A stretch of 46,279 bases of DNA from a virus: positions 1 through 46,279 of the IMG/VR virus record IMGVR_UViG_3300005265_000032. The stretch is one strand, 5' to 3'. Positions within the stretch are counted from its first letter, which is position 1. The number at the start of each line of letters is the position of its first letter. This document shows, piece after piece, positions 38,251 through 41,547 of this stretch. The position numbers were made by a program, and so were the translations under genes. The notes under the pieces are model-generated. The model saw only the letters and a program-made list of their open reading frames with translations. It was not told the origin of the DNA and did not search any database.

Positions 38251-41200
38251 TCAAGTCTTAGGTTTTGGGAGTTCACTCTTCTGAACGGTCCACAAGTCGG
38301 AACCTTCTTGTTGGAATGCGACCCAGACGCCTTTAAGCTCCTTGCCTTTGAGAATGAACTTTCTAAAGTCTCCTTCGATTAGCATAGTGGCTTTGCCCTG
38401 ATCGAGAACTTCGATTTTTGACGGAGTTGCCTTTGTAGGATTAAGTTTAGTTTTGGGGCGAATCTCCCCCTCCGCAGCCCAGAGAGAGGAGGAGTGGCGG
38501 AAGGGGAGACCGGTTGCGGTTTCCGAAGCGAGCAAGGATGCGTTCAGAGCGAGTGAGAAATAATTTTTGCCGTGTTTAAGAACGAAGTAATATTGAATAC
38601 GTGAAGGACCTTCACGAACAACCTTCTGCCCTTTCCACGTTTGTTTGAGGAACTTAAATCTCCCCTGTGCAATGGAATCCAGCTTTAGCAGTTTCTTCTT
38701 TATTTCTTTTACTAATTCGTCTCTAATCTCTCTCCGCCGTGAGGCGTCTTTTATCTTCCAGTATTGGAACTTCTCGGGGATTTTATTGCGAATATTGTGG
38801 GGCAAAGCAGAAGCTCCATATGGCGGCATCCACGCCTTTTTTACAGCGCGAGCAGAAATAACATATGGAGTCGGTGATTTTAACGCGTTGAACATCATCC
38901 ATGTAAGCAATCCTTCGTCAGTTTTCTTCCATTCCTTGCGATTTTCGAGTAATCGGAAAACAAGCCTGCCGTTAAAGATTTTACCATCGCACATATATTC
39001 GTGAAAATAGCTCTTTTGCGCGCCGAACTGCACTTCAAAAGAATCAATAATATAGAAGAACCCGGGTTCATTCTTTGTCGCGCCGACATGCCCGGGCTGC
39101 ACCATACCCTGATAAGAGAGCCACTCGATTGGTTCAGGCTTCTTTTTACCGCAATTGAACTTCTTCATGGGATTAGACATAGTTTCTTTCACAAGAGGGA
39201 GAATCTCTGCATCCACAAGCCTTTTAAATTCTGCGTAATTTGCGGGGACTTTTGAAAGCCCTTTCGGGATATATAGCGTCCAGCCAGTAGCATAATCAGC
39301 GGACATCTGCGCACGGAAATCAAGATGGACGCTTCTGCCCCTGCCGTGGCAGTGTACCATGCCCTTCCATTTTTTTGATTCATCAGGATAAGTCAAATAA
39401 GGATCAGCGTCTTCAATGGAATAAGCATCTTCATATCGCTTTGGCCATGGCTTCTTTGTAACTGTGCCGTGCGAAGCTTCCACGAGCTTATCCGCGGTGA
39501 ACGTGTTATCGGGCTTCTTTTTATCTTGGCGCCACATGAGGGGTCTCGGTGACCACATATTATACCATGCTTTGCCATCTTCAGTTTCATACTTATTCAA
39601 ATTGACGAAGGAGACCTTAAGAATGTCGCCCTCACGAAGTGGTTCGGTTTCTGTTCTGCCGATTGAAGTGTTATAGCTTTTTCCTACTGGGATAGGGTTG
39701 CCTTTTGGATCTCTGATAATGCAAAGATAAGACCAAGCATTAGCGCCTTTGATCTTATTGGCACTCTTGACTTCGACATCCCACGAAAAGGAGTTCTTAA
39801 ACTTGATGTTCTCTTTTGTTTCGCCAGTCAAGACATATGGAAAGCCATTAACGACTTTTAGATATGCGCCTTCAGAGCCTTCTTGCGAGGAAAAATGCTT
39901 AACCTCCTTGCGAAGATCCGCTTCATTGTCTACAACCTTGGTTTCCGCTTTGATGATGTGATTTGAATCTTTAATTTTGGCCAGTAGCTCCAATCGCTTG
40001 GAATAAGACTCGTCGTGGATATCAGAATCGTAGAACAAGCAGTCGAAAATATTAAGTTTTAAAGTCTCTTCCTTCGGATGGACGCCTTTAGAATGGATGA
40101 TCGCAGTAGTGACTTGGCGGGGATTGTGTTTCCCTTTTTCCCATGATTCTAATTCGCCGGTGACAATGACATCATGACCTTTGCAGATTTCTTTAAGTTC
40201 AGAAACGATAGTAGGGATTTTTTCAGTGATTGGGTTGCCCTCTTCAGTAAAGACAATAACCTTACCTTCTTTGGAGTGATCTACTCGGCAATGAATTCCA
40301 TCGAATTTTCGCTGAACTGCAATCTTATTAGAGTATTTCCAATGCGAGTTCACGACATTAATTAGATTGCCGATTGTGTACTCTTCCATTTTGTATCTTC
40401 CAGTTAGCGGTTTGAGTAGAGGGCAGAATTTGAATAGTTCAACTTTCGCGCATTTTCCATCTTGGGGTATATTTTGAGGGTCAAGGGAGCTTGAGTCTCC
40501 CTTCTTAGACATTAGCACGAGATGGGGCTTTTCTATGACTTCGATCTTCTCATTGAAGATGTCAAGATAATTAGTGAACTTTCCCGGATGCGTCTCCTCC
40601 TGAAACGGGTATCTAAATCTGAAGCGATACCAGTATTCCTGCGGGAACATACGAATCAAGCGGAACTCAGTGGCGATGTCACGGGAGTTGGAGTTGATAA
40701 AGACATCGATGTCACCTTTTGTCTTGCCCCGATTACATATACCGCCAATTAGACTGACGTAAGGTTTGGTACGATAGAAGGATTTAAAATACTTTTTAAT
40801 CTCGCTCAATGTCACTTCTTCACCAATTTCAATTCCAGAAGGATTGACAGGAGCAAGTTCTTCTTTTTTGGCATCGAGAAACTTCACACGTTTGATAAAC
40901 GTCTGCACACCTTGCGGGATTTCAGCGTGCCGCGGCTGATCCCACGGAGAAACATCGTACACATCATAAAGATAAAACTCGTTTTTATCCTTCCACCACT
41001 CTTCGATTTCGTCTGGCGTGATGCGATGCAGTGGGTAAAGTTCATCAAGTTTATGCTTTGCGACCTTGCGAGGCAGCTTCATTTTCAGCGTGCCAAAGCA
41101 GAGTCCAGAGCTGCAAAAGAACAGCGGCTTTTCGCAATAAGAAGAAAAGTCTTTCGACTTGACAATCATGGTCTTCTTACCCGCTGCGATTAGCTCTGCA

Positions 41201-41547
41201 TGCGGCGACACAAGATAAATTGCAGGGAGATCGAGCGAATCAAGTGATTCGGTAAGTACCGAGATTTCCCATGGTTCTAATTTCTTAACGACATTCCGCC
41301 ATAATTTCTCATAAGGCTTGCTCTTTTGCTCGCTGATAGAGAAGGACATCTTGCCTGTTTTAACGCGTTTGGCAATTTCGCGAATGCACGTTGCTGCGAG
41401 CGAGTAGATGTCGGCATAGTCAAATGGCTCATCCTTGCCTGCATCGAGGTTTGCGATAGCTGCGATGAAAAGACGCCAGTCATCGGATAGTTGGTTATTG
41501 CGTGCCTTTTCAGGGCGATAAGGTTGCGACCAGTCAAAGAAGATCAT
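38251..41547 (-). CDS. ASCH / nucleotidyltransferase / ATP-dependent DNA ligase / LigD-phosphoesterase-like fusion
   Basis: This 1,098-residue protein joins several DNA-repair-type parts. Residues about 108-218 look like an ASCH domain (SPHAELIAAGKKTM). Residues 262-290 carry a Pol-beta-type nucleotidyltransferase motif (SLIGGICNRGKTKGDIDVF, Asp279/Asp281). Residues 405-675 are an ATP-dependent ligase: QRKFDG (Lys414 nucleophile), TGELES (Glu465), EGAYLK (Glu559), then KFK (Lys582/584) and an OB-like domain. Residues 725-860 resemble the LigD 3'-phosphoesterase, with CHGRGRSVHLDFR (His734, His741, Asp743, Arg745), but the later His seems replaced by Glu/Pro. The C-terminal 240 residues are unassigned. 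It heads the virion gene block. Confidence 0.8.
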   Translation of the reverse strand: MIFFDWSQPYRPEKARNNQLSDDWRLFIAAIANLDAGKDEPFDYADIYSLAATCIREIAKRVKTGKMSFSISEQKSKPYEKLWRNVVKKLEPWEISVLTESLDSLDLPAIYLVSPHAELIAAGKKTMIVKSKDFSSYCEKPLFFCSSGLCFGTLKMKLPRKVAKHKLDELYPLHRITPDEIEEWWKDKNEFYLYDVYDVSPWDQPRHAEIPQGVQTFIKRVKFLDAKKEELAPVNPSGIEIGEEVTLSEIKKYFKSFYRTKPYVSLIGGICNRGKTKGDIDVFINSNSRDIATEFRLIRMFPQEYWYRFRFRYPFQEETHPGKFTNYLDIFNEKIEVIEKPHLVLMSKKGDSSSLDPQNIPQDGKCAKVELFKFCPLLKPLTGRYKMEEYTIGNLINVVNSHWKYSNKIAVQRKFDGIHCRVDHSKEGKVIVFTEEGNPITEKIPTIVSELKEICKGHDVIVTGELESWEKGKHNPRQVTTAIIHSKGVHPKEETLKLNIFDCLFYDSDIHDESYSKRLELLAKIKDSNHIIKAETKVVDNEADLRKEVKHFSSQEGSEGAYLKVVNGFPYVLTGETKENIKFKNSFSWDVEVKSANKIKGANAWSYLCIIRDPKGNPIPVGKSYNTSIGRTETEPLREGDILKVSFVNLNKYETEDGKAWYNMWSPRPLMWRQDKKKPDNTFTADKLVEASHGTVTKKPWPKRYEDAYSIEDADPYLTYPDESKKWKGMVHCHGRGRSVHLDFRAQMSADYATGWTLYIPKGLSKVPANYAEFKRLVDAEILPLVKETMSNPMKKFNCGKKKPEPIEWLSYQGMVQPGHVGATKNEPGFFYIIDSFEVQFGAQKSYFHEYMCDGKIFNGRLVFRLLENRKEWKKTDEGLLTWMMFNALKSPTPYVISARAVKKAWMPPYGASALPHNIRNKIPEKFQYWKIKDASRRREIRDELVKEIKKKLLKLDSIAQGRFKFLKQTWKGQKVVREGPSRIQYYFVLKHGKNYFSLALNASLLASETATGLPFRHSSSLWAAEGEIRPKTKLNPTKATPSKIEVLDQGKATMLIEGDFRKFILKGKELKGVWVAFQQEGSDLWTVQKSELPKPKT

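Follow-up and report, generated by a model that had tools for sequence, protein, structure and literature searches.

A DNA ligase with ASCH, nucleotidyltransferase and LigD-like phosphoesterase domains beside viral head genes: a putative packaged end-repair protein

Described systems and the window locus

DNA ligase D, the ligase of NHEJ, combines an adenylation domain and OB-fold, a 3'-phosphoesterase (PE) and a nucleotide-adding domain in one polypeptide; its PE acts on DNA ends, and LigD-type phosphoesterases also occur in archaea as stand-alone proteins (3p43, 3p4h, 5dmp). Phage polyvalent proteins (Iyer et al. 2017, PMC5512222) are large mosaics encoded next to portal, MuF and late genes, with fusions to head proteins and, in some cases, 2H or nucleotidyltransferase (NTase) domains; LigD, ASCH, XkdF and DNA ligase are absent from the main text of that paper, in which the few mentions of 'ligase' refer to RNA ligases. 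A precedent for packaged repair enzymes is the ASFV virion, which carries Pol X, a ligase and an AP endonuclease (PMC12172490). ANMV-1, an archaeal virus from a methane seep (KP703175; Paul et al. 2015, PMC4372165), encodes AJP62006, described in its record as a ligase only, and the word 'ligase' is absent from the main text of the ANMV-1 paper.

The protein considered here is encoded in IMG/VR record IMGVR_UViG_3300005265_000032, positions 1 to 46,279, and this whole stretch of 46,279 nt is referred to as the window. Our check confirmed the ORF as described in the first-pass annotation: it is a real ORF of 1,098 aa with an ATG start. Its features are as follows.

38251..41547 (-): whole ORF, 1098 aa; ASCH, NTase, DNA ligase, PE1, PE2; 50% identity to ANMV-1 AJP62006 over query residues 227-1091
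41227..41547 (-): N-terminal helical region, residues 1-107, DDWR... motif module; AlphaFold2 (AF2) helices 17-100; similar stretches in L004, L044, L066 and L070
40870..41226 (-): ASCH domain, residues ~108-226 (PHAELIAAGKKTMIVKS...); PDB profile 2dp9/1wk2 6e-8; Foldseek 2dp9, ZmASCH, TRIP4 ASCH
40513..40860 (-): putative Pol-beta-type NTase, residues ~230-345; G268G269...D279-I-D281, candidate third carboxylate D329; conservation and weak Pfam/PDB profiles
39784..40434 (-): ligase adenylation domain, residues ~372-588; K414 (adenylation lysine), E465, SEG558-560, K564, K582; DNA_ligase_A_M 2e-17
39478..39783 (-): ligase OB-fold region with SPR/DK motif VI-like end, residues ~589-690; PDB ligase alignments, family alignment columns 474-487
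38878..39423 (-): LigD-type 3'-phosphoesterase domain 1 (PE1), residues ~709-890; H734, H741, D743, R745; AF2, Foldseek, profile and conservation
38683..38877 (-): conserved linker TPYVISARAVKKAWMPPYGASALP..., residues ~891-955; W/P columns near-invariant in the family alignment
38272..38682 (-): degenerate PE-like domain (PE2), residues ~956-1092; C-terminal profile matches to 3p43 and 3p4h, alignment

AJP62006 shares the NTase, ligase, PE1 and PE2 with the window protein and is encoded next to a portal gene, but has 867 codons and no counterpart of the helical N-terminus or ASCH. Compared with DNA ligase D, the window protein has a putative Pol-beta-type NTase in place of an AEP polymerase (LigD_pol/primase gave no match in the window protein), adds ASCH and PE2, and is set in a head-gene context, with no Ku in the 32 virus records searched. 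PE1 has the fold and H...H-x-D-x-R core of the stand-alone archaeal enzymes; however, its H-to-H spacing is one residue longer, the His and Tyr of DHPxxY are replaced, and it is fused to a ligase and an NTase. ASFV also has a Pol-X-type NTase and an ATP ligase, carried in its virion, but as separate proteins of a eukaryotic virus with an unrelated capsid.

Relatives of the window protein

A single-sequence scan of viral contigs with the window protein returned no match, and alignments were needed. Alignment-based scans of IMG/VR yielded 51 and 35 partly overlapping loci, and removal of clear duplicates left 82 (handles with the prefix L), which are not all independent, were all retrieved via conserved peptides, and do not measure prevalence. 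Iterated profiles gave a family architecture of ASCH module, NTase, ligase, PE1 and PE2. This module set is common to the 82 loci, nearly all from uncultured viruses, so that the combination, which the first-pass annotation had taken as unusual for one virus, is instead a family trait. The catalytic residues are almost invariant, which argues for selection on catalysis.

The order of modules is mostly that of the window from N to C terminus, with NTase-PE-ligase in L024, L025 and L034. The modules are distributed over adjacent ORFs in L004, L009, L071 and L073, and in L006, from a metagenome-assembled genome (MAG), the PE part is a separate ORF past inserted genes. That the modules are kept together despite permuted order or split ORFs suggests that they act as a set. 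The N-terminal helical module of the window ORF recurs among relatives, some of which have additional domains for end processing or nucleic acids: a PNK3P-type 3'-phosphatase and a 2H phosphoesterase (L014), 2H (L066), a metallo-beta-lactamase (L013) and a D12 DNA methylase (L047 and others). Some relatives gave weak Pyr_excise (pyrimidine-dimer glycosylase) matches (best 8e-4, L074), below cut-off and in a helical region, and a glycosylase was not accepted. By eye, L069 has an intein-like insertion inside PE1, and a ligase/PE protein in L074 (4270-9228) has an N-terminal stretch resembling a TGT/DpdA-type enzyme.

A search of 50,697 phage records gave a single relative, the 'ATP-dependent DNA ligase' of ANMV-1 listed above, whose identity to the window protein speaks against a chance observation. 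Closer relatives (68% and 62%) were found on two binned contigs of a Methanosarcinales MAG; the host of the window virus is thus probably an ANME-like or methanogen-related archaeon. No paper naming this domain architecture was found in a literature search that lay mostly outside subscription journals; as far as the searched literature goes, the family is previously unremarked, and is a variant of polyvalent/LigD-like proteins.

Several other features of the window were recorded. The terminal ORFs at 3-5864 (-) and 45280-46278 (-) continue one reading frame over the contig ends (with TGC as the codon at the junction), and the contig thus probably represents a whole genome, either circular or permuted; joined, they form one proline/threonine-repeat protein of ~2,290 aa with an SNase-like nuclease stretch (PHROG 452, 5e-11). 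An IscB-like protein with RRXRR and HNH (14242-15762 (-), Pfam 2e-65) and a full HEARO (omegaRNA) Rfam match at 15527-15762 (120 bits) make up a complete-looking IscB/omegaRNA unit in this probably archaeal virus, and an MT-A70 adenine methyltransferase fused to ParB_N is encoded at 19095-20285 (-). Iteron-like repeats of 26 bp (TCTGTATAACGTTGATACTTTCTCGA type), possibly replication or regulatory sites, occur in four intergenic places (10391-10475, 13643-13775, 42425-42484 and 42822-42871), one array lying directly upstream of a glycosyltransferase gene. Tandem units of 32-34 bp with the palindrome CCGCTCCTGCGGAGCGG are found in two distant places (9817-9888 and 42265-42418) and overlap the 3' end of a PAPS-reductase-like gene.

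Domains and catalytic residues

Scanned alone against Pfam, PHROGs and NCBIfam, the window protein matches ligase models only, DNA_ligase_A_M being its sole Pfam match. Single-protein scans would therefore falsely imply that the other domains are absent, and family profiles were required to detect them. The identities of ASCH and PE were established by family profiles, AF2 and Foldseek, and the putative NTase was recognized from its motif and weak profile matches; input alignments for AF2 were made without ANMV-1 rows.

The Pfam ligase match covers residues 406-568, and ATP ligases in the PDB are matched down to 1.7e-11, with alignments reaching residue 624. The adenylation domain has the KxDG and downstream motifs of the ATP-dependent DNA ligase superfamily (K414-FDG, E465, SEG558-560, K564 and K582), and these are near-invariant in the family alignment (K 74/75, E 72/74, R 74/74, SEG, K 76/77 and K 76/77). 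For ASCH, a profile of the relatives matches TTHA0113 (2dp9/1wk2) at 6e-8 in a PDB profile search. Foldseek with the AF2 model covering residues 1-403 (pLDDT 80) retrieves 2dp9 (E 4e-6, TMt 0.72), the Zymomonas ASCH protein (ZmASCH) and TRIP4 ASCH, and by their titles the matched entries include ASCH-dsDNA complexes, with TRIP4 ASCH in complex with dsDNA. The domain has a PUA-like ASCH fold with the GxK[ST] motif, the Lys of which is present in 33 of 33 aligned sequences. Among viral structures, those closest to residues 108-226 belong to giant viruses (Mimivirus LCMiAC01, 34% identity) and to an ART-PolyVal protein of Caudovirales.

Residues 268-281 contain GG-x9-DID with Pol-X-like spacing, in agreement with the Pol-beta superfamily motif hG[GS]x9-13D-h-D (G 75/75, D 74/78 and D 75/78 in the family alignment). 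Pfam matches are weak (NTP_transf_2 in 5/56 members, best 0.008; DNA_pol_B_palm in 2/56) and also include Polbeta. Against the PDB, the NTase profile gave a sub-significant fold match to the AF0614 NTase, TdT and the CCA enzyme (E 0.2-0.75), and 11 of its 12 weak matches are Pol-beta-superfamily enzymes. The position of the third carboxylate shifts, from D329 in the window to a Y-D three residues further on in many relatives. With database support that is weak but consistent, residues ~230-345 are read as a putative Pol-beta-type NTase, less firmly as regards fold and third carboxylate.

For residues 709-1098 (AF2, pLDDT 90), the six best Foldseek matches are all LigD phosphoesterases (3p43/3n9b/3p4h/5dmp), LigD_N was detected in 21 of 41 family members, and a profile of PE1 only matches 3p4h at 1.4e-4. 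PE1 has the PE fold and the H...H-x-D-x-R metal/phosphate site of LigD 3'-phosphoesterases (H 74/75, H 80/80, D 80/80, R 79/80). Where LigD has its second motif, DHPxxY, the family alignment shows Q/E-P-x-x-W; PE1 thus has neither the His nor the Tyr, and its activity may differ from that of LigD PE. The PE2 part of the profile matches 3p43 best (whole-sequence E 2.2e-9, PE2 stretch i-E 1.5e-7) and also 3p4h; its HYD motif has become YYF in the window, and HYDLR is kept in L059-L065.

These results bear out the ligase, ASCH, NTase and LigD phosphoesterase-like calls of the first-pass annotation, to which PE2 is added by this analysis. A check of domain boundaries against folds had been named beforehand as able to overturn that reading; for ASCH and PE the boundaries fit, and for these two the reading stands.

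Head-gene context and possible role

The ORF had also been described as lying beside capsid genes, and this holds for the following genes of the same virus.

43974..45191 (+): portal, upstream of the fusion ORF; Phage_portal_3 3e-30; 44% identical to ANMV-1 AJP62005
36229..37497 (-): DUF2213/head maturation (prohead) protease, downstream of the fusion ORF; PHROG 530 9e-32, Pfam DUF2213 5e-22
34656..35528 (-): major capsid protein (MCP), downstream of the fusion ORF; PHROG 264 3e-9; co-classified with L005/L006 homologues
7134..8486 (-): terminase large subunit; PHROG 2 5e-24

As the portal is on the opposite strand and two metabolic-looking genes intervene, the operon link in the window is only to the protease and MCP. 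In diverse viruses, the conserved order is portal, (MuF), ligase fusion, prohead protease and MCP. Using context profiles seeded with head proteins identified by Pfam/PHROG, we found a portal at most eight genes upstream or inside the gene set at 42 of 56 testable loci, a protease fused or at most five genes downstream at 56 of 70, and an MCP at most five genes downstream at 44 loci. At 20 of the 82 loci the fusion polypeptide itself ends in an XkdF-type prohead protease (Peptidase_S78_2: 3e-30 in L066, 8e-30 in L047, 7e-14 in L021), and at seven loci it is the portal that carries the ASCH module at its C-terminus. Chance proximity of a host-derived LigD to head genes was rejected, because the association recurs over the 82 loci with portal, protease and MCP families that differ (PHROG MCP 212, 264, 1357/544/267, 1623 and 24667). 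The family thus has the features of phage polyvalent proteins (multiple domains, a place beside virion genes and fusion to head proteins), the fusions being found in relatives and not in the window protein. In ANMV-1, the 'MutT-like phage hydrolase' is a portal (L003:1913-3193, Phage_portal_3 3e-22), which corrects the annotation of that virus and places its ligase gene within the head cassette; a further correction is that AJP62007 (L003:5868-9368) ends in a MuF-like motif (PHROG 4728, 2.5e-5).

The constant core corresponds to the tasks of LigD (3' end cleaning, nucleotide addition and sealing), which suggests end repair, and the fusions to head proteins point to the capsid. We therefore read it, with some confidence, as a multidomain protein for DNA-end repair that is associated with the head of a tailed virus of methane-cycling archaea and is probably packaged. 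The one-polypeptide end-repair machine first proposed for this ORF remains the best-supported reading, and the idea that it may be packaged gains support from the conserved head-cassette position and the two kinds of fusion. The activities, packaging, substrate, timing and action on the incoming genome that we infer would be as follows. The protein would be produced together with the head proteins and enter the prohead by binding to the portal or prohead protease, proteins with which fusions exist in relatives. ASCH would hold nucleic acid, PE1 would take off 3'-phosphate or 3'-ribonucleotide blocks, the NTase would add or fill in one or a few nucleotides, and the ligase, charged with AMP at K414, would seal the nick or end; PE2 may be a structural or DNA-gripping relic. 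It would act as the DNA is packaged or ejected, on the ends of the viral genome or on damage to it, with end-healing and circularisation without Ku as one example of the outcome.

Other explanations need to be weighed against this one. The protein might be a late-expressed, unpackaged intracellular factor that mends nicks and blocked ends of concatemers for the terminase, its position in the head cassette reflecting timing only. The late-gene position would account for co-regulation, a DNA ligase with a 3'-end cleaner serves an ordinary need of replication and repair, and the modules are separate ORFs in four loci; however, the XkdF and portal fusions are hard to explain by timing alone, and we regard this as unlikely. 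The protease fusion could alternatively mean that the ligase part is a scaffold that is cut off and lost. Slightly less probable than the unpackaged factor is a packaged polyvalent effector against host defence or host molecules, in which the NTase would modify a host protein or tRNA (MNT-type), ASCH would act on RNA, and the ligase and PE would mend cuts by host nucleases. Polyvalent proteins typically mix such domains and adjoin virion genes, and their Pol-beta NTases have been read as protein-modifying (PMC5512222); ZmASCH and TRIP4 ASCH, the latter solved with dsDNA, are among the relatives of the ASCH domain, and the D12 methylase modules fit anti-restriction. Against this, the end-repair core of ligase, PE and NTase is invariant while accessory domains vary. 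ASCH, 2H and PNK3P modules are also found in RNA repair, and RNA_ligase (PF09414) matches L074 at 1e-3, but an RNA-repair ligase is very improbable given the far better DNA_ligase_A_M matches (2.8e-24 in L074, 2e-17 in the window), the OB-like region and a LigD-type PE, which works on DNA ends.

A more specific form of the packaged end-repair reading is offered only tentatively: that tailed viruses of an undescribed, widespread group, some of them infecting ANME-type archaea, might assemble a Ku-independent NHEJ-like complex in the capsid by attachment to the portal or protease, and that its delivery along with the genome would serve to heal and circularise incoming DNA. Circularisation of the mycobacteriophage type depends on Ku, and it was set aside here because no Ku partner was found in any of 32 virus records including the window (positive control Bacillus subtilis), many of which may be fragments.

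The ends of an injected genome face nucleases and damage. A capsid-linked ligase with a 3'-end cleaner and an NTase would be one directly testable answer to the protection and circularisation of ends in tailed viruses without cohesive ends, in hosts whose biology is little known, and the compact fusion protein could be of use as a tool enzyme in end repair. Some virus particles may accordingly bring along a DNA-repair kit of their own.
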